A stretch of 64,000 nt of DNA from Desulfobacteraceae bacterium Eth-SRB1 (lineage in GTDB: Bacteria > Desulfobacterota > Desulfobacteria > Desulfobacterales > ETH-SRB1): the NCBI GenBank assembly GCA_004193555.1, contig RPGP01000040.1, forward strand, positions 1 through 64,000, given 5' to 3'. The notes under the pieces were generated by a model. That model was not told where the DNA came from, did no database searches, and saw nothing but the letters and a program-made list of their open reading frames with translations. Position 1 is the stretch's first letter; each line of letters begins with the position of its first letter. A program made the translations under genes and the position numbers. Shown one piece after another: positions 10,159 to 35,466 of this stretch.

Positions 10159-10221
10159 GCAAAATGAGTATAAAAATGCTTGACAGTGATGCAGGCTTAA
10201 TCCATCATAACAAATTATTTA

Positions 10222-10405
10222 TTTAGGCGCTCATATTGAGCTTAACAGGGAACCCTGTGCAAATCAGGGACGGGCCCGCCGCTGTAATCCCACCCTTTTT
10301 TTTATTAAAGACAGGGAACCTTTTTAGCATTTATACGCCACTATTCTGATAAAAACGGAATGGGAAGGTCGCTAAAGAGGCGGGAAAGTCAGAAAACCTG
10401 CCTGA
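10222..10405 (+). promoter_or_regulatory. Cobalamin riboswitch, first of a tandem pair
   Basis: The conserved core is visible: AACAGGGAACCCTGTG, GGGACGGGCCCGCCGCTGTA, then CGCCACTATT with GAATGGGAAGG, and a B12-box-type end (AAGTCAGAAAACCTGCC, 10386-10402). The AdoCbl aptamer class shows these blocks in this order. A strong intrinsic terminator follows at 10466, so ligand binding probably causes premature termination. A near-identical aptamer lies at 18676-18856, so the two are recent duplicates. Confidence 0.9.
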
Positions 10406-10465
10406 ATTATTGGCTTTATCTTCGAGGACAAGAAATAGGCCTTAGTAGATCCAACGGAAAAAAGG

Positions 10466-10508
10466 GATATCCCCGGATCGATTTAATATCGGTTCGGGGA
10501 TTTTTTTT
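10466..10508 (+). terminator. Intrinsic terminator between the two riboswitches
   Basis: A GC-rich hairpin with arms ATCCCCGGATCGAT and ATCGGTTCGGGGAT and a five-base loop is followed by eight T. It sits between the two aptamers and is the likely expression platform of the first. The same hairpin occurs after the riboswitch at 18676. Confidence 0.88.
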
Positions 10509-10510
10509 GC

Positions 10511-10667
10511 AATCTGTCAGATCAAGGAAGCCGGTTAGATTCCGGCGCTGCCCCGCAACTGTAGGCGGAACGAAACCCACTTAAATGTCACTGATCTCCA
10601 AAATGGAGATTGGGAAGGCGTGGAGAGTAGGAATTGCCGCAAGCCAGGAGACTTGTCTGATAGATAA
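10511..10667 (+). promoter_or_regulatory. Cobalamin riboswitch, second of a tandem pair
   Basis: This is a classic aptamer: AGCCGGTTAGATTCCGG, GCTGCCCCGCAACTGTAGG, TCACTGATCTCC, TTGGGAAGGCG and the B12 box GCAAGCCAGGAGACTTG. The closing stem TCTGTCAGA (10512-10520) pairs with TCTGATAGA near the end. It differs clearly in core sequence from the first aptamer, so it is not a simple tandem copy. It ends about 40 bases before the receptor start codon with no terminator between, so it probably acts on ribosome access. Confidence 0.93.
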
Positions 10668-10706
10668 AACAACAATTCTAACCGAGGGGAAAGGAGAAAC
10701 AAAAAA

Positions 10707-12725
10707 ATGAAGAAGTTATTAAATTGTGCGGCAGTATTATTAGTATTTATGTTTTTTGCCCTACCTGCACCGATTTTTGCACAGGAAGAGAAGGGTGTTG
10801 TAACAATGGAAGAAACGGTGGTAACGGCAACTAGGGATAAAGAAGAGATTCGCAAGATTCCGGCGAATGTAAGTGTTGTTACGGCGAAAGATATTGAAGA
10901 ATCCGGCGCTACAAGTATTGTAGAAGTACTGGAAAACTTAGAAAGTATTAATTTTGTGAGCTGGAGCGGGAACCCTTCTCAGGCATATATAGACATGCGT
11001 GGTTTTGGAGGAGACAATCCATTTGGCAAGACCCTGATCATGCTGGATGGCAGGAGACTGAACAGACCTGACATGGCAGGTGTAAACTGGCTTCAAATAC
11101 CTGTCGGTAACATTGAAAAAATAGAAGTTATCAGAGGCGCCAGCAGTGTTCTGTACGGTGATTCCGCTGTTGCCGGTGTAATAAATATTATTACAAAAAG
11201 GGGTGAAGGGAAACCTGACGTGAATGCTTCGGTTATAGCCGGAAGTTATGGTCTGCATGATGAAAGAGTTGGAATAACCGGCTCTTACGACAGGCTTTCG
11301 TATGCCCTGACAGGTGAAAATCAGAAAACATTTGGCTATAGAGAGAGGTCAAAGTTTGCATCAAAGGGAGCTGGGTTAAATCTGGGTTATGATGCAAGCG
11401 ATTATTTTGATATTTTTCTTGGGGTATCCTTTAACAAAACAGATTTTGACATGCCTGGTTGTTTGACAAAGGCACAGATGGAACAGGACAGAAAACAGTA
11501 TCAGCCTGGGCACTCAAACGATGACGCATCAAATGAATATAGTAATATCAACCTTAAGATGAAATCCTTTCTGGGTAATTTCGGACGGTTTGACGTTAAC
11601 TTTATGTACGGCAATAAGGACATTAAAAACAATATGGAGTCCAATTGGGCGCCAAATAAATACAATGTTGCTGATATTGACACCTTTGGCATAACACCAA
11701 AATATATACTGGGAAAAGACGTTTTTGGGCATGGAAACAAGCTGATTTTAGGGTTGGATTATTACCATGAGAAACTTGATATTGATAAATACAGCGATCG
11801 TGAAAGAATATCGAAAACTCACACGGTAGATCTGGAGAAAAACACTCTTGGATATTACATAAGGGATGAGCTTGACATACTTGAAAAGTTGATACTGAGC
11901 GTTGGTTACAGAACAGAGAGGGGTGAGATAAAGGGCAGCGAGACAACACTTGCAACGGCAACAAAAGACTTTGATGACAAAAAAATTCATAAGGGTGAAG
12001 CGTATGAGGCAGGCTTGACTTACCTGATAGGGGAAAAATCGAAGATATTTACAAAATATGCCCAGGTTTATCGCTATCCGTTTCTCGATGAACAGGCATC
12101 ATATTGGGGCTTCGGAGGAGATACTTTTTTGACAGATCTTGAGAAAGAGAAAGGGGAAAGTTTTGAAGTTGGTACCCAGTTTAATTCTATTGAGAACATG
12201 AAGATTGGGTTAACTTTTTTTAGAATCGACATGGAAGATGAGATTGTATACAATAATTCCACATCGCGGAACGAAAATCTGGACAAGACAAGTCATGAAG
12301 GAGCTGAGTTTTCCATTTCATATAAATTAGAGAAGCTGGGCAAATTCTATGGCAATTTTACCTATCATGACGCAGAATTCACAAGCGGACAATACAACGG
12401 CAAGAAAATGTTTTTAGTCCCGAAGGAAATGGCCAATGCAGGTCTTGAGATATACCTTCCTTATGCCTTTATGTTACGTCCCGAGATGCGATATGTAGGG
12501 AAATGTTATCAAGGCGGCGATAAAGCAAACACTTCTGAACAAATGAACGATTATACGCTGTATGATTTTTTCCTGTTCTATAGACCTGAATTTGATAATT
12601 TCAAAATATCTGCATTTTTAGGTGTCGAAAATTTTACAGACGAAAAGCATTCGGTTATATCGTGGGGTGGTTATTACCCGCAACCAGGAATTGCCGCAAA
12701 GGGCGGCATCTCTTTTATGTTTTAG
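10707..12725 (+). CDS. btuB: TonB-dependent outer-membrane receptor, probable corrinoid transporter
   Basis: A 672-residue receptor with a signal peptide (about 1-25, cleaved near PIFAQ), a TonB-box-like MEETVVTATRDKE, a plug domain with IEKIEVIRGASSVLYGDSAV and a 22-strand barrel that ends in Phe, as outer-membrane barrels do. It would bring corrinoids across the outer membrane with TonB energy. The substrate is inferred from control by two cobalamin riboswitches just upstream and from cobO just downstream; sequence alone would allow other substrates. GGAAAGGAG precedes the ATG. A GC-rich hairpin (12738-12771) follows it. Confidence 0.9.
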   Translation: MKKLLNCAAVLLVFMFFALPAPIFAQEEKGVVTMEETVVTATRDKEEIRKIPANVSVVTAKDIEESGATSIVEVLENLESINFVSWSGNPSQAYIDMRGFGGDNPFGKTLIMLDGRRLNRPDMAGVNWLQIPVGNIEKIEVIRGASSVLYGDSAVAGVINIITKRGEGKPDVNASVIAGSYGLHDERVGITGSYDRLSYALTGENQKTFGYRERSKFASKGAGLNLGYDASDYFDIFLGVSFNKTDFDMPGCLTKAQMEQDRKQYQPGHSNDDASNEYSNINLKMKSFLGNFGRFDVNFMYGNKDIKNNMESNWAPNKYNVADIDTFGITPKYILGKDVFGHGNKLILGLDYYHEKLDIDKYSDRERISKTHTVDLEKNTLGYYIRDELDILEKLILSVGYRTERGEIKGSETTLATATKDFDDKKIHKGEAYEAGLTYLIGEKSKIFTKYAQVYRYPFLDEQASYWGFGGDTFLTDLEKEKGESFEVGTQFNSIENMKIGLTFFRIDMEDEIVYNNSTSRNENLDKTSHEGAEFSISYKLEKLGKFYGNFTYHDAEFTSGQYNGKKMFLVPKEMANAGLEIYLPYAFMLRPEMRYVGKCYQGGDKANTSEQMNDYTLYDFFLFYRPEFDNFKISAFLGVENFTDEKHSVISWGGYYPQPGIAAKGGISFMF

Positions 12726-12737
12726 TTTCTATAATCA

Positions 12738-12771
12738 TTAGGGGAGGAAAAGTTTATTTTTCCTCCCCTAT
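12738..12771 (+). terminator. Hairpin between receptor gene and cobO
   Basis: The arms TAGGGGAGGAAAA and TTTTTCCTCCCCTA form a nearly perfect stem with a short loop. There is no clear T run after it, so it may attenuate or protect message ends rather than terminate fully. cobO begins about 30 bases later. Confidence 0.6.
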
Positions 12772-12803
12772 CGGAAAAAAAGAAATTGTCTGGAGGGGGA
12801 GTG

Positions 12804-13319
12804 ATGAAAGGATACATTCAGGTTTATACCGGCAATGGCAAAGGAAAAACCACGGCGGCTTTCGGGCTTGCCCTGCGTGCAGCCGGGGCTGGGCTTAAGG
12901 TATATATCGCCCAGTTTGTCAAGGGAATGAAGTACAGCGAACTCAACTCCCTGGAAAAGCTGTCGGAATCTATTACAATAAAACAATACGGCAGGGACTG
13001 CTTTATTTACAGAGAACCTGAGAAGGAAGATATTCAGGCAGCGCAGGAAGGTCTCAAAGAGGTCAGGGAGATCATGTGTTCCGGCAAGTATCAGATGATC
13101 ATCCTTGATGAGGCCAATATCGCCACCTATTATAATCTCTTTTCCGTGGATGAACTGCTGGATTTTATCCGGGCAAAGCCGGAAGAAGTGGAGCTGATTA
13201 TTACAGGCAGAAAGGCAGATCCCAGGATTATCGAAGAGGCTGACCTGGTGACGGAAATGAAGGAGATCAAGCATTACTATCAGAAAGGTGTGCAGGCAAG
13301 GGATGGGATTGAGAAGTAA
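12804..13319 (+). CDS. cobO: Cob(I)yrinic acid a,c-diamide adenosyltransferase
   Basis: CobO (BtuR/CobA type) attaches the 5'-deoxyadenosyl group of ATP to the reduced cobalt of corrinoids. The start MKGYIQVYTGNGKGKTTAAF contains the P-loop at residues 10-17, and IILDEANIA holds the Walker B part. Length is 171 residues. ATG 12804 is preferred over the longer frame because GGAGGGGG lies directly before it, inside that longer frame. It lies just after the corrinoid receptor and probably shares its riboswitch control. A short remnant of a second copy lies at 18582. Confidence 0.94.
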   Translation: MKGYIQVYTGNGKGKTTAAFGLALRAAGAGLKVYIAQFVKGMKYSELNSLEKLSESITIKQYGRDCFIYREPEKEDIQAAQEGLKEVREIMCSGKYQMIILDEANIATYYNLFSVDELLDFIRAKPEEVELIITGRKADPRIIEEADLVTEMKEIKHYYQKGVQARDGIEK

Positions 13320-13327
13320 TAAGTGTA

Positions 13328-13440
13328 CTCGCAACTATCATAGAAACGGGGAAGTTCTGTGAGAATCAGACACAGTCGCGCTACGGTGTTTAGAGGTCAT
13401 ATGATGACGAGCTAAAAGTCCGAATACCATAATAGTTGGA
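13328..13440 (+). promoter_or_regulatory. Cobalamin riboswitch controlling the metE operon
   Basis: The blocks CGGGGAAGTTCTGTGAGAAT, GACACAGTCGCGCTACGGTG and AGTCCGAATACC are the conserved core of cobalamin aptamers of the type common in front of metE. The ends AACTATCAT (about 13332) and ATAATAGTTGG close the outer stem. No T-tailed terminator follows, so ribosome-site sequestration near AAAAGGAG (13464-13471) is more likely. This fits shut-off of B12-independent methionine synthesis when cobalamin is plentiful. Confidence 0.9.
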
Positions 13441-13476
13441 AATCAATTTTGTCGCGTAAACAAAAAGGAGAAGTAA

Positions 13477-15759
13477 ATGGAAATTAAAACAAGTATAACA
13501 GGATTTCCCAGAATTGGAGAACAAAGAGAATTAAAAAAAGCACTGGAAAGTTTCTGGACAGGAAAAACCAGCCTGTCTGAGCTTGAAAAAACTTCACATG
13601 AACTCAAAATCAGACATTGGAATTACCAGAAAGCGTCAGAGATTGATTTAATCTCCAGTAATGATTTTAGCTGGTATGACAATATGCTGGATACCGCTGT
13701 TATGCTGAACGCTATCCCGGAAAGATTTCGTAATATTATCGATGAGACGGAGCGCTATTTCACAATGGCAAGAGGTAGTAAAGATTGTGTTGCCATGGAA
13801 ATGACAAAATGGTTTAACACAAATTATCATTACATTGTGCCTGAGCTTGGCAGTAAAGATGAATACAGTTTAAATGCAACTAAAATTTTAGACGAATATA
13901 AGGAAGCAAAAGAGATCGGCATAAAAACAAAAATAAATATAGTAGGTCCTGTTACATTTTTAGCGTTGTCAAAGAGGGTTGATGAAGCAGGCGGCACATA
14001 TCAATTGTTTGATAAAGTTCTTCCGGTATATAAGGAGATGATAAGACAGATCAGCAAGCTGGATGATAATATTTATGTTCAGTTTGATGAACCTGTTTTT
14101 GTTAAAGATACAGGTTCAAAAGAATTAAATTTATTAAAGAAAGCTTATTCTGAATTAACTGAATGTGCGGACAATGTAAAAATTATAGTTGCAACCTATT
14201 TTGAGCATTCAAATGAAGCCACAAACATTTTAATCGATACTCCAATATGGGGGATTTGTTTAGATTTTATATACGGGAAACAAAATCTTGATGGAATTGA
14301 AACTCTAAAAGATAAAAAGCTGATTGCCGGGGTCGTTGATGGACGAAATATCTGGGCAAATGATTTTGAGAAAAGCGTAGCGCTCTTAAATAAAATCTCA
14401 GACAGGGTCAACAGGGAAAACATAATCGTATCAAGCAGCTGTTCACTTCTGCATGTGCCATATTCTCTGAAATACGAAGATAATTTAGATGATGATTTAA
14501 AAACATGGTTGTCGTTTACAATGGAAAAACTTGAAGAGGTTAATTTGATTTCCAAACTTTTTCACGGCGTAGAATTATGTGAAGAAGATAAACAAAAAGT
14601 AACCGCCAACAAAGATGTGATTGAAAAGAAAAGAGTTTCCTTAAAAATTCACAATAATGCTGTCCATTCCAGATTGAAAAATCTTGTAAAAAAGGAAAGA
14701 GACGATAAATTTGAAGACAGAATAAAAGTTCAGAAAGCTGTTTTAAAATATCCTGAACTGGCTACGACTACAATCGGCAGTTTCCCACAAACACCGGAAA
14801 TTCGAAAATTAAGAAGAGATTATAAAAATAACAACATCTCAAAAGAATTTTATGAAACCGGAATTAAAGAATATATTGATAATTGTATTGATTTTCAGGA
14901 AGAAATTGGACTTGACGTGTTGGTGCACGGTGAACCTGAGAGGAATGATATGGTCGAGTATTTTGGCGAAATGCTCGATGGATTTGGATTTACAAAAAAC
15001 GGATGGGTTCAAAGTTATGGGAGCAGATGCGTAAAACCTCCAGTAATTTATGGAGATATCAGCAGGCCTGAGCCTATGACTGTTAAATGGATCACATATG
15101 CTCAGAGTAAAACTGAAAAGATTGTAAAAGGAATGCTTACAGGACCGGTTACAATTTTAAAATGGTCTTTTGTAAGAGATGATTTGCCGAGAAGTGTGGT
15201 TTCAGAGCAGATCTCAGTTGCTTTAAGTGATGAAGTAACCGATCTTCAAAATTCTGGAATTAAAATCGTTCAGATTGATGAAGCAGCATTTAAAGAGGGA
15301 TATCCTTTAAGAAAGGATAATATTCCTGATTATGAGAAGTGGGCTGTAAAAAGTTTTAAAATCGTTGTTAGCCCTGCTGAAATGGAAACTCAAATACACA
15401 CGCATATGTGTTACAGTGAGTTTAATGATATCATAAAGACTATAGAAGCAATGGATGCTGATGTTATTTCAATAGAGACCGCCAGAAGTGGGAATGAACT
15501 TCTTAAAGTCTTTAAGGCCATTGGCTATAAACAGGAAGTTGGGCCGGGAGTTTATGATATCCATTCTCCAAGAGTTCCGGGCATTGATGAAATAGTTAAA
15601 CAAATCAATGCGCTGCTTGAAGTGCTTCCCATGAAACAGTTGTGGATAAATCCTGATTGTGGTTTAAAAACAAGAAAATGGGAAGAAGTAAAACCAAGCC
15701 TGAAAAATATGGTGCTTGCAGTTAAACAGGTCAGAAAAGATCTTAAAGAAAGAAGATGA
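13477..15759 (+). CDS. metE: Cobalamin-independent methionine synthase
   Basis: MetE transfers the methyl group of 5-methyltetrahydropteroyl-triglutamate to homocysteine without B12. At 760 residues it has the full two-barrel length. The zinc ligands align with the E. coli set: His643 and Cys645 in HTHMCYSEFND, Glu667 in VISIETARSG and Cys728 in NPDCGL. The N-terminal barrel begins TSITGFPRIGEQRELKKALE. AAAAGGAGAAG precedes the ATG. A cobalamin riboswitch upstream controls it, and two further homocysteine methyltransferase-like genes follow in the same direction. Confidence 0.96.
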   Translation: MEIKTSITGFPRIGEQRELKKALESFWTGKTSLSELEKTSHELKIRHWNYQKASEIDLISSNDFSWYDNMLDTAVMLNAIPERFRNIIDETERYFTMARGSKDCVAMEMTKWFNTNYHYIVPELGSKDEYSLNATKILDEYKEAKEIGIKTKINIVGPVTFLALSKRVDEAGGTYQLFDKVLPVYKEMIRQISKLDDNIYVQFDEPVFVKDTGSKELNLLKKAYSELTECADNVKIIVATYFEHSNEATNILIDTPIWGICLDFIYGKQNLDGIETLKDKKLIAGVVDGRNIWANDFEKSVALLNKISDRVNRENIIVSSSCSLLHVPYSLKYEDNLDDDLKTWLSFTMEKLEEVNLISKLFHGVELCEEDKQKVTANKDVIEKKRVSLKIHNNAVHSRLKNLVKKERDDKFEDRIKVQKAVLKYPELATTTIGSFPQTPEIRKLRRDYKNNNISKEFYETGIKEYIDNCIDFQEEIGLDVLVHGEPERNDMVEYFGEMLDGFGFTKNGWVQSYGSRCVKPPVIYGDISRPEPMTVKWITYAQSKTEKIVKGMLTGPVTILKWSFVRDDLPRSVVSEQISVALSDEVTDLQNSGIKIVQIDEAAFKEGYPLRKDNIPDYEKWAVKSFKIVVSPAEMETQIHTHMCYSEFNDIIKTIEAMDADVISIETARSGNELLKVFKAIGYKQEVGPGVYDIHSPRVPGIDEIVKQINALLEVLPMKQLWINPDCGLKTRKWEEVKPSLKNMVLAVKQVRKDLKERR

Positions 15760-15811
15760 AAACTCTGGAAACTGGAAATTGGGAGAAATGCAACGGGTTT
15801 ACGAGTTGACA

Positions 15812-15834
15812 GTCAATGTCATTAACTCAAGTTT
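15812..15834. repeat. Single arm of a dispersed repeat
   Basis: The string AATGTCATTAACTCAAGTTT resembles one terminal arm of the element between qmoC and sat (54268-54420). The other arm is not seen here. It lies between metE and the next gene. Confidence 0.4.
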
Positions 15835-15900
15835 CGCACCATTTAATTTAGCCAAAGCGTTAGACGGTAAGGGCTAAAAAAGCAAGGAGGCAGGGATAAA

Positions 15901-17328
15901 ATGTTTTCTCGAGAGTGGGTTTTTTATGTTTTTGGAAGATGGGTAATTATGTCAGGTATTGCGGGAGCAATGGTTCAGTTTTTATTTTCCGATATCATTG
16001 GAATACATACAATCCCTGCCTTTCTACTGAATCAATTTTGTCTTGCCTGTGTATTCTGGTATGTAGATAAACTAATCTTTAAAAGACATTTTAAGGAAAC
16101 ATTATCAAACTTTTTTCGCTTTCCAAGAATTAAAACAGCCTATGGGTTTACAGAGCAGTTTGATAAAATTAAGCAGGAATTCAATGACTTTAAGACAAAA
16201 ATGGCGGGAAGTGAAGATAAGCCCGGAATATGGCTTAATGAATTTGTGGATTTTGAGCATAGCGTTGAAATGATGGAAAGGCTCTTGAGGGAAAGAAAAA
16301 TTGATGTGGATAAGGAATATGAAAATGTCAGGGATGAGAATTTAGAAAGAGGATATTATTTTGATAAAGAAATCCTGAAAAAAACTGAAACAGAAAAAAA
16401 AGGACACAAAGTATTCCTTGAGGCATTGAGCAAAGATGTTTTATTAGCTGATGGCGCAATGGGAACATATTTAACAACCAAAGGTTTTGATGCTTCAATT
16501 TGTTGCGAATCCCTGAATCTTACTGATTCAGAAACAGTGAAAAAAGTTCATGAAGAATATATCGAAGCTGGAGCTAAGATAATAGAAACCAACACCTTTG
16601 CCGCAAATAAATTTAAGCTGGCTGAATATGGATTGGCTGATAAGGTTAGAGAAATAAATCTTGCGGGAGCAAGGATTGCTAAAGAATCTTCAGAGGGCAG
16701 AGTATTTGTAGCGGGCTCAGTTGGTCCTTTAGGAAGGTCAATAAGTCCGTATGGCGAATTATCTCTTGTTGAAGCTCATAACGCTTTCATGGAACAAATT
16801 CAAGCCATTATAGATGGTGATGTTGATATTATAATGTTAGAGACTATGGCAAGTTTTTTAGAAGCAAAAGAGGCGGTTCTTGTGTGTAGAGAAATAGCCG
16901 ATATCCCGATAATCTGCCAGGTGACTTTTACCGATGAAGGAAAGACTGTTTACGGCGATAAATTAGCAGAATCATTTGAAGAGTTAAAACGCCTTGGCGC
17001 TGATGTAGTTGGATTAAATTGCTCTTTAGGCCCACGGAAGATGTTAGAACTTTTAAAATCTATTCCCAATTCATTTACAGGTATGGTTTCAGTTCAGCCT
17101 AATGCAGGATTGCCTCGATACAGGGATGGTTCTTCTGAATATTCGGTAAATCCTGAATACTTTAGAGAATATGCTGAGCATTTTAAGAATTCAGGTGTGA
17201 ACATAATTGGTGGTTGTTGCGGAACTACACCAGCGCATATAAAAGAGATGGCTAAAGTTGTGTCCGGCCCTCCGGTTAAAAGAAGATGCGAGATAAAATA
17301 TGCCACCAATCCAGATCAAAAAGGATGA
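15901..17328 (+). CDS. Membrane-anchored homocysteine S-methyltransferase fusion
   Basis: Residues about 172-460 are a homocysteine S-methyltransferase barrel like the first module of MetH: DGAMGT at 184-189, and the zinc cysteines in NCSLGP (Cys374) and GGCCGTTPAH (Cys439 and Cys440). The folate, cobalamin and reactivation modules of MetH are absent. The first 65 residues hold two membrane segments (about 15-33 and 40-60) and residues 80-170 are charged and helical. I do not know this front domain from other methyltransferases. AAGGAGGCAGGG precedes the ATG and the frame is continuous, so the fusion is real as sequenced. It lies between metE and a core-MetE-like gene. A methyl donor could be a betaine, S-methylmethionine or a corrinoid protein; none is shown. 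Confidence 0.85.
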   Translation: MFSREWVFYVFGRWVIMSGIAGAMVQFLFSDIIGIHTIPAFLLNQFCLACVFWYVDKLIFKRHFKETLSNFFRFPRIKTAYGFTEQFDKIKQEFNDFKTKMAGSEDKPGIWLNEFVDFEHSVEMMERLLRERKIDVDKEYENVRDENLERGYYFDKEILKKTETEKKGHKVFLEALSKDVLLADGAMGTYLTTKGFDASICCESLNLTDSETVKKVHEEYIEAGAKIIETNTFAANKFKLAEYGLADKVREINLAGARIAKESSEGRVFVAGSVGPLGRSISPYGELSLVEAHNAFMEQIQAIIDGDVDIIMLETMASFLEAKEAVLVCREIADIPIICQVTFTDEGKTVYGDKLAESFEELKRLGADVVGLNCSLGPRKMLELLKSIPNSFTGMVSVQPNAGLPRYRDGSSEYSVNPEYFREYAEHFKNSGVNIIGGCCGTTPAHIKEMAKVVSGPPVKRRCEIKYATNPDQKG

Positions 17329-17334
17329 ATATAA

Positions 17335-18387
17335 ATGCAGAATACTATGGTAGAAAGGCTTTTAAGTGTAGATTGCAAGGTCACAGGAATTGGTAGTGTG
17401 CCTCATAAGGATGTTGATTATATTTGCGAACTGATACTCAATAAATTTCCAGACATACCTTACTATCCCCAGTTTAGCAAAATCGATGCAAGAGAAAATA
17501 TGTTTCTACAGTGCAGCGAAAACCTGCCATGTCTTAAACCCGATTTAAAGAAAGAACATATTTACTATGACGATTCTGTAAACAAAGAAGAAAAACTATT
17601 GGAATTTTATGACCATTTGACCCGTAAGTCTTATGAATATTTTAAGATAACTTCAGATTACGCAAAAGGATTTTATGCATTACTTGAGAAATCAAAAAAC
17701 GAACAGAACCAATTCATTAAGGGGCAGGTTATAGGGCCTATTACATTCTCATCTTCAATCCTGGGAGAAAATGGAAGGGCTCTTATTCACGATGATGTGA
17801 TGTCCGATGTTATTGTAAAGGGTCTTGCCATGAAGGGAATATGGCAGGCAAAGGAGATAAAAAAAACAGGTAAAATGCCGGTTATTTTTTACGATGAGCC
17901 GTATTTAGCCAGTTTCGGCTCGGCATATCTGCCTCTTGAGGAAAAAAAGGTCATAACTATATTAAATGACCTCATCGACTTTATAAATGAGCGGGAAGAT
18001 ATATTAATAGGGCTCCATTGTTGCGGCAACACAGACTGGGAGATGCTTTTGCAAACAAGGATAGACATTATCAGTTTTGATTCTTATGGATTCTCTGAAT
18101 ATTTTGTACTTTACCCAAATGCTATCAAAAAATTCCTGGCAAGAAACGGTGTGATTGTCTGGGGCGCTGTTCCAACTGCGGAGTATCGTGATGGTATTTC
18201 TTTAGATGAACTTTGCCAGAAGTTAAACAAAGCGTTAAATATTTTAACAAGAAAAGGCATTGACAAGGAACTCCTTCTGAAAAATTCACTATTTAGCCCT
18301 TCCTGCGGTATGGGATTATTGAATGAAAAAACCGGTGAGAAGATTATGCATCTAACAGCTGCTTTAGCAGAAAGAATGAAAAGGTAG
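17335..18387 (+). CDS. Core-MetE-like methyltransferase, single barrel
   Basis: A 350-residue protein related to the C-terminal barrel of MetE and to uroporphyrinogen decarboxylase-type methyltransferases. IGSVPHKD (19-26) is the entry motif, FYDEPY at 185-190 holds the conserved DEP, and the zinc set appears as His228 and Cys229 in GLHCCGNTDW with Cys324 in SPSCGMG. The N-terminal MetE barrel that binds polyglutamyl folate is missing. Short MetE forms of this kind in archaea and Dehalococcoides take methyl groups from corrinoid proteins or methylcobalamin rather than folate. It starts 6 bases after the fusion gene, so it is cotranscribed. The methyl donor here is unknown. Confidence 0.85.
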   Translation: MQNTMVERLLSVDCKVTGIGSVPHKDVDYICELILNKFPDIPYYPQFSKIDARENMFLQCSENLPCLKPDLKKEHIYYDDSVNKEEKLLEFYDHLTRKSYEYFKITSDYAKGFYALLEKSKNEQNQFIKGQVIGPITFSSSILGENGRALIHDDVMSDVIVKGLAMKGIWQAKEIKKTGKMPVIFYDEPYLASFGSAYLPLEEKKVITILNDLIDFINEREDILIGLHCCGNTDWEMLLQTRIDIISFDSYGFSEYFVLYPNAIKKFLARNGVIVWGAVPTAEYRDGISLDELCQKLNKALNILTRKGIDKELLLKNSLFSPSCGMGLLNEKTGEKIMHLTAALAERMKR

Positions 18388-18393
18388 CTTATT

Positions 18394-18554
18394 ACCTAAA
18401 TTGAGCGATTTTTTACTCGATCTGCGCCGATCTCTTGCGCATAAAGGCTTCGCAAAAATCCTCCACATATCCACGGGTATGCCTGCGGTTTTTGCAAATC
18501 CTTATGCATCAAGATCTCAGCACATATCTTCGCAAAAAATCGCTCAACTTAGGT
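18394..18554. repeat. 161-bp hairpin element, copy 1
   Basis: The ends ACCTAAATTGAGCGATTTTT and AAAAATCGCTCAACTTAGGT are inverted copies, and the interior pairs again (CTTGCGCATAAAGG against CCTTATGCATCAAG), so the whole folds into one long imperfect hairpin. A second copy of exactly the same length lies at 19970-20130 and a truncated one at 35467. It has no coding capacity and looks like a MITE-type element. Confidence 0.88.
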
Positions 18555-18581
18555 ATTACAAATGTCAGGAGCAGTTAAAAA

Positions 18582-18632
18582 GTGAAAGGATATGTTCAGG
18601 TTTATACTGGTGATGGAATATGTAAGACATAA
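18582..18632 (+). pseudogene. Fragment of a second cobO
   Basis: Seventeen codons from GTG 18582 read VKGYVQVYTGDGICKT and stop. This matches the first 16 residues of cobO at 12804 (MKGYIQVYTGNGKGKT) with a broken P-loop. Nothing of the rest remains. It lies between a hairpin element and a cobalamin riboswitch, like the arrangement around the intact gene. Confidence 0.8.
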
Positions 18633-18675
18633 TAAAGCTTGATTTCATAATATAAATAGTTTAAACACAATATAG

Positions 18676-19891: not shown

Positions 19892-19969
19892 GTGAAAGAG
19901 GCAGCAGCTTCTATAGAGGGTCTGATTCTTGGCACCTATTACAATTCTGATCCAGGTGACAATACTTGC

Positions 19970-20130
19970 ACCTAAATTGAGCGATTTTTGACTCGATCTG
20001 CACTGATCTCTTGCGCATCAAGGATTCGCGAAAATCCTCGACATATCCACGGGTATGCCTGCGGTTTTCGCAAACCCTTATGCATCAAGATTTCAGCACA
20101 TTTCTTCCCCAAAAATCGCTCAACTTAGGT
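19970..20130. repeat. 161-bp hairpin element, copy 2
   Basis: Same ends and same length as the copy at 18394-18554, with scattered differences in the middle. It separates the DUF4198 gene from cbiM. The remaining gap (20131-20295) holds no gene; it contains GATGTTCGAACATC, a short palindrome that could be an operator. Confidence 0.88.
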
Positions 20131-20295
20131 TGTAATGAAACCTGAGGCGGGATGTTCGAACATCAAATCATCTTGGTTTGCTGCAATCGCCTGTCCGAGT
20201 ACTGTGACGGGCAGGGGCTGCTTCGATCCGAAGCCTGGGAGTCTCTAAATTTCTTATAGTGAGTTTAACACAATACAGGAGAAAGGAAATATATT

Positions 20296-35403: not shown

Positions 35404-35466
35404 TTTTGTGATTTGTGGTTGATATATTGACTATGTTTAGGATATTAATAATAGATACATTCTTAA

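Follow-up and report, generated by a model that had tools for sequence, protein, structure and literature searches.

Organisation of the locus

The window analysed here is a stretch of 64,000 nucleotides from contig RPGP01000040.1 of Desulfobacteraceae bacterium Eth-SRB1, in which positions 13321-18387 hold a cobalamin-riboswitch-like leader followed by three genes on the forward strand. The leader (13321-13475, forward strand; AdoCbl-type, RF01482, 40 bits, E 1.4e-5) precedes a full-length metE (13477-15759) for a cobalamin-independent methionine synthase of 760 aa, whose matches to PRK05222 (1082 bits) and TIGR01371 (1045 bits) both exceed the cut-off. A gap of 142 bp, in which neither a terminator-like site nor another RNA family was found, separates metE from a gene encoding a 475-aa fusion protein (15901-17328), and the third gene (17335-18387), which starts 6 bases past the stop of the fusion, encodes a single-barrel MetE of 350 aa whose zinc ligands are intact. 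This gene set, including the 6-base gap, had been described in a first-pass annotation made from the sequence, and is borne out by the profiles and the coordinates. The three genes are assumed to be expressed as one transcript.

The metE leader scores under the gathering thresholds (RF01482, 40.0 against 50 bits; RF00174, 23.8 against 31.5 bits) and folding it as single-stranded RNA gave no informative signal (z 0.26). Since an orthologous leader scoring 46.3 bits is kept at the corresponding position in another genome, that of Candidatus Desulfaltia sp. (G003, locus L007), it was taken as a real though divergent riboswitch, and in spite of its sub-threshold score it may still act like a cobalamin riboswitch. 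The aptamer is missing at metE of G008, the contig of which stops within metE, and of G014, i.e. at two of the four metE loci of the family, with the following hairpin retained. The earlier description of the genes as a B12-repressed operon is thus acceptable for the metE leader at most, as judged by sequence, and loses ground with the absence of the aptamer at two metE orthologues of the family.

The metE leaders of two related genomes (L139, 6588-6669; L140, 1705-1779) retain the hairpin and the ribosome-binding region and lack the entire aptamer, which offers a natural comparison of B12 control with and without that element. Three strong cobalamin riboswitches were observed elsewhere in the same neighbourhood; tandem cobalamin riboswitches (10208-10419 and 10474-10674) precede a TonB-dependent receptor, and a cobalamin riboswitch at 18662 precedes a DUF4198 gene and cobalt-uptake genes. 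Directly 3' of the third gene lies a palindromic MITE-like repeat of 165 bp (18392-18556, no strand assigned) with self-complementary ends (TTACCTAAATTGAGCGATTTTTT), which has a 92% identical copy at 19968-20132 (19970-20130 in the feature list; repeat length 160-165 bp). An end-like sequence also occurs singly at 35465, and one more is in a related genus (L059). A remnant of the btuR start (18582-18632, VKGYVQVYTGDGICKT*) lies past the palindromic repeat and ahead of the next cobalamin riboswitch and suggests a segmental duplication in the B12 locus.

Homocysteine methyltransferase domain of the fusion protein

Residues 181-454 of the fusion (16441-17262, forward strand) correspond to a zinc homocysteine S-methyltransferase (HMT) domain, with a PF02574 match of 258 bits against a cut-off of 22 and the three zinc cysteines C374, C439 and C440 in the motifs NC and GGCC. 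The best NCBIfam match of the fusion is partial, namely PRK08645 (bifunctional HMT-methylenetetrahydrofolate reductase, MTHFR) with 358 bits over profile positions 3-287 of 611. Membership of PRK08645 requires both halves and at least 453 bits; the window fusion stays outside, whereas the fusion at L029 (Thermodesulfobacteriota isolate SKW55; G091/G457), which continues into MTHFR, belongs to it with 671 bits. The fusion is also not a MetH, as PF02574 stands alone on the chain without cobalamin- or folate-binding modules. The closest solved relatives of its HMT domain are the MetH N-terminal modules (E 1e-55).

Fusions of the N-terminal domain (N-domain) with HMT were identified in the window genome (G000), in G003 (94% identity), in G070 (L069; 73%) and at L029 (53%), representing three separate Desulfobacterota lineages, and are intact in all four genomes. 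A one-off fusion or an assembly artefact was ruled out by this recurrence in four assemblies. Comparison of the window with G003 gave a dN of 0.026 and a dS of 0.158 (dN/dS 0.17) for HMT, and a dN of 0.011 and a dS of 0.139 (dN/dS approximately 0.08) for the N-domain, which is more constrained than any other part of the fusion, while the fast-changing linker between them (residues 156-172; 16366-16416, forward strand) has a dN/dS above 1 (dN 0.33, dS 0.11) from 17 codons only. Judged by these rates, both domains are kept by selection, the N-domain most strongly, and the linker drifts. The strongest constraint within the fusion implies that the N-domain is more than loose membrane padding.

The methyl donor of the HMT domain might be cobalamin-free (S-methylmethionine or betaine), such that all of the encoded enzymes but the third-gene product would work when B12 is short, with the membrane domain only placing HMT near an uptake system. 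Such an arrangement would fit a leader that is switched off by cobalamin, and PF02574 does include betaine-homocysteine methyltransferase (BHMT) and the S-methylmethionine enzymes, both of which were found as weaker relatives. However, MetH and HMT-MTHFR are far ahead of BHMT (77 bits) and of plain homocysteine S-methyltransferase (64 bits), and no betaine or S-methylmethionine transporter was present among the adjacent genes scanned, and a cobalamin-free donor is considered unlikely.

The N-terminal domain and its stand-alone relatives

The N-domain (residues 1-155; 15901-16365, forward strand) comprises two predicted membrane helices and a three-helix part and belongs to an undescribed family. 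Two hydrophobic stretches lie within residues ~7-62, and an AlphaFold model from an alignment of 28 rows places helices at residues 4-33, 37-71, 83-101, 108-131 and 136-150 (mean pLDDT 75), the last three being shorter and cytosolic-looking. Insertion of the domain in the membrane is inferred from the hydrophobicity and from this model of middling confidence. The two membrane segments and the helical part fused to an HMT resembling the first module of MetH, as annotated at first pass, thus agree with the hydrophobicity, the AlphaFold helices and the PF02574 score.

The ~170 residues preceding HMT belong to no Pfam family, and searches with the N-domain in Pfam, NCBIfam and PDB sequences returned nothing, so far as kinship within the reach of these searches is concerned; a Pfam scan of 28 members gave scattered chance matches only. 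A known membrane module, considered beforehand, was therefore not recovered at this level of relationship. A known fold was likewise rejected, the best Foldseek match (NaK channel fragments, E 1.4, TM 0.22) being counted as none.

A pattern scan of one genome per species in 84,980 species retrieved 23 relatives of the N-domain with identities of 51-94%. The majority come from the Dehalococcoidia as complete proteins 153-161 residues long, and one is from the Omnitrophica; stand-alone homologues of 153 aa share 51-59% identity. The domain is present in 16 of 301 Chloroflexota genomes, once in each, including single-contig genomes of 1.4-2.1 Mb, and in nine of 395 genomes of the phylum of the window, where four are fusions and five come from one genus with a four-cysteine tail. 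The search of the fusion N-terminus across genomes proposed in the first-pass annotation has thus yielded a fusion in three lineages and a stand-alone family. The membrane core A40-F60 is near-invariant, including N44, Q45 and D56. The N-domain thus forms a real, hitherto undescribed family, in which the predicted membrane core is constant and the putatively cytosolic parts are exchangeable.

In the one Desulfobacterota genus mentioned above, the two-helix domain bears the four-cysteine tail CADCG...CxTCRERK (L070, 8391-8774; L071, 7987-8370; L072, 7684-8064; L073, 8119-8613), and at L072 the gene is divergent from a MesB gene.

Beside the stand-alone domain, a histone-deacetylase-like gene and one for an ECF-like membrane protein are encountered most often, and in small complete Chloroflexota genomes it adjoins yet other genes. 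Consistent methionine-gene neighbours were sought and not found, most Dehalococcoidia loci holding unrelated genes. An association of the N-domain with MTHFR alone was ruled out, as most genomes have the domain away from any MTHFR gene and also because Dehalococcoides mccartyi reportedly lacks MTHFR (PMC7857596). Within ~1.7 kb of stand-alone copies, ThyA was found at three loci, ThyX at three, MTHFR at two and MesB at one (two more MesB at 2.8 kb), families that were picked after looking, most loci showing none; these neighbours are only a hint of a link to a folate/one-carbon role. It is a speculative possibility that the two-helix family, which is widespread in Dehalococcoidia, is a docking platform for one-carbon enzymes, and the HMT fusions a membrane-anchored methionine synthase that would take its methyl group from a membrane-associated corrinoid partner.

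The same neighbours bear on the view that HMT is a passenger on a membrane domain that does the work, i.e. that a two-helix protein of a folate/one-carbon membrane assembly recruits methionine synthesis through its fusion to HMT or HMT-MTHFR. The membrane domain is indeed the most conserved part of the fusion, ThyA, ThyX, MTHFR or MesB lie near some stand-alone copies and thyX adjoins the HMT-MTHFR fusion at L029, but the one-carbon neighbours occur in few lineages and were selected post hoc, with other genes at most loci, which leaves this view improbable.

The third gene and the methionine synthases of the host

The third gene (17335-18387, forward strand) has no Pfam match of its own and its NCBIfam match is weak. 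Its zinc ligands H228, C230, D249 and C324 are invariant in an alignment across 12 relatives, and with C374/C439/C440 of the fusion the later two genes carry the zinc sites of the homocysteine methyltransferase kinds to which they had been assigned at first pass. A structure was predicted for the protein because searching PDB sequences with the MesB alignment had retrieved no match; residues 1-350 match the MetE catalytic barrel (~386-730; Z 25) and MesD (3RPD; Z 24.6), the folate half at the N-terminus of MetE being absent. As a MesB-type enzyme it would methylate homocysteine from methylcobalamin and need no folate. The protein scores 152-256 bits against the collected MesB-like relatives and 196-256 bits against five Dehalococcoidia relatives, and its identity to Dehalococcoidia relatives is 37%; the published MesB threshold of at least 130 bits by phmmer is defined against the characterised D. 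mccartyi MesB (PMC7857596). PF03599, the corrinoid iron-sulfur protein expected alongside MesB, was found above cut-off at C40:100712 and C40:104613. In the phylogenetic tree the gene groups with MesB of the Dehalococcoidia/Omnitrophica side (support 93/89), apart from the resident MesB of the host, its exact placement being uncertain owing to a long branch. Zinc ligands, alignment, tree and fold together indicate that it is probably a known, MesB kind of core methionine synthase that was acquired by the host, where it is a second copy. MesB-like genes were identified in 32 of 38 relatives.

The host genome also encodes a short MetH on C29 with homocysteine, folate and B12 modules, one MTHFR, the resident MesB and corrinoid iron-sulfur protein subunits (Wood-Ljungdahl), with B12 genes in the window. 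Counting metE, the fusion and both MesB copies along with MetH, it has five potential methionine synthases.

Conservation and probable exchange of the gene trio

Among the genomes searched, metE, the fusion and core-MetE occur together only in the window genome and G003, i.e. in two genera of one family, and metE was found above cut-off in seven of 58 relatives. G014 has metE followed by a different gene, with neither fusion nor riboswitch. The fusions of G070 and L029 adjoin neither metE nor MesB; that of G070 sits between surface-polysaccharide-type genes and an iron-transport-type pair, while that of L029 adjoins thyX on the downstream side, the only one visible as the contig begins inside the fusion. 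The expectation that the domain would stay beside metE and core-MetE in unrelated genomes was thus not upheld, and a conserved three-gene system was rejected on the gene neighbourhoods in the genomes searched. Between the window and G003, the dS of the trio is 0.15-0.19 compared with 0.56 for the flanking btuR and 0.91 for cobT, and its GC content is 35-37% against 42% for the window. The low dS together with the low GC points to a recent exchange between the genera, and the trio is apparently a recently exchanged cassette.

At L007, ~1.4 kb (12061-13490) carrying an hldD-like gene and part of a gcvT-like frame splits the Desulfaltia core-MetE, either as an insertion or as an assembly chimera. 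This core-MetE is interrupted after ~209 codons with ~240 bp missing, for which a chimeric assembly is possible, and the relatives of the third gene in G006 and G013 are fragmentary or contain stops. Such breakage, the lack of the riboswitch at two metE orthologues and the MITE-like palindrome and btuR remnant 3' of the cassette are what would be expected if a mobile cassette of the B12 locus had accidentally gathered spare methionine synthases, with the fusion and the second MesB bringing little and decaying. The fusion, however, is intact in four of four genomes and under purifying selection (the dN/dS values of 0.08 and 0.17 above) and the third gene of the window is intact with a dN/dS of ~0.28, and accidental accretion is regarded as very unlikely.

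Proposed function

The fusion is proposed to act as a zinc homocysteine S-methyltransferase that is anchored to the cytoplasmic membrane through its two-helix domain and that would bind homocysteine as a zinc thiolate and yield methionine, as the conserved domain and its ligands suggest. By analogy with the MetH N-terminal module, which the fusion resembles, the most likely methyl donor would be a methylated corrinoid protein, since the HMT domain has its nearest relatives in MetH modules and PRK08645. The constraint on the N-domain and its separate existence as a protein suggest that, beyond tethering, it probably serves to dock the enzyme to a membrane partner. Together with metE and the MesB-type core synthase the fusion would form a mobile methionine-synthesis cassette, in which cobalamin, acting through the leader, probably represses metE and perhaps the rest, and which would serve as a back-up beside the MetH and MesB of the host. 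This reading as a whole, i.e. a docked, membrane-held zinc HMT with a corrinoid donor in a mobile back-up cassette, is the best explanation at present, with a probability of about one half. Against it, a corrinoid donor fits poorly with a leader that is turned off by cobalamin, and the role of the N-domain may be unrelated to methyl transfer, given its methionine-unrelated neighbours in most Dehalococcoidia.

To our knowledge, methionine synthases are thought of as soluble. That the enzyme is fused repeatedly to a membrane domain under strong conservation suggests that homocysteine methylation is membrane-tied in some anaerobes; the membrane-tied methyl transfer to methionine proposed in the first-pass annotation is likewise a hypothesis. 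Dehalococcoidia are dechlorinating bacteria with an unusual methyl-group metabolism, and the fusions offer a handle on, and a testable role for, a conserved unannotated membrane protein of this group.

Comparison with known systems

The novelty of the locus lies in an undescribed membrane domain family fused to a known kind of enzyme and not in a new conserved operon. Among the papers searched, none dealt with a membrane-bound methionine synthase. No described system of this shape was known to the first-pass annotation; the membrane domain is undescribed, and the core-MetE kind has already been described as MesB (PMC7857596, PMC7005905).

Among the bifunctional HMT/MTHFR enzymes of the PRK08645/YitJ type, the N-terminal half is nearest to the HMT of the fusion, and L029 has the entire bifunctional enzyme behind the same membrane domain, whereas the fusions of the window, G003 and G070 are without the reductase half and the membrane domain is foreign to the described family. 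With the MetH N-terminal homocysteine module the fusion shares the PF02574 barrel with its NC...GGCC zinc cysteines and the nearest solved structures, but its chain has no folate-binding, cobalamin-binding or activation module and has a membrane domain added. The riboswitch-like leader resembles that of metE genes under cobalamin riboswitch control, such as metE of G036 with a full-scoring riboswitch, although here the AdoCbl-type match is weak and is missing at two of the four metE loci of the family. As in the MesB/core-MetE enzymes (Price 2021, PMC7857596; Deobald 2020, PMC7005905), which in D. mccartyi, a species without MTHFR, are fed from the corrinoid iron-sulfur protein (PMC7857596, PMC7005905), the third gene encodes a single MetE barrel of ~350 aa with the zinc set H, C, D, C, in a host that encodes the corrinoid iron-sulfur protein; it differs in being a divergent second copy (31-37% identity to others) that adjoins metE behind a cobalamin leader, while the resident MesB lies elsewhere.
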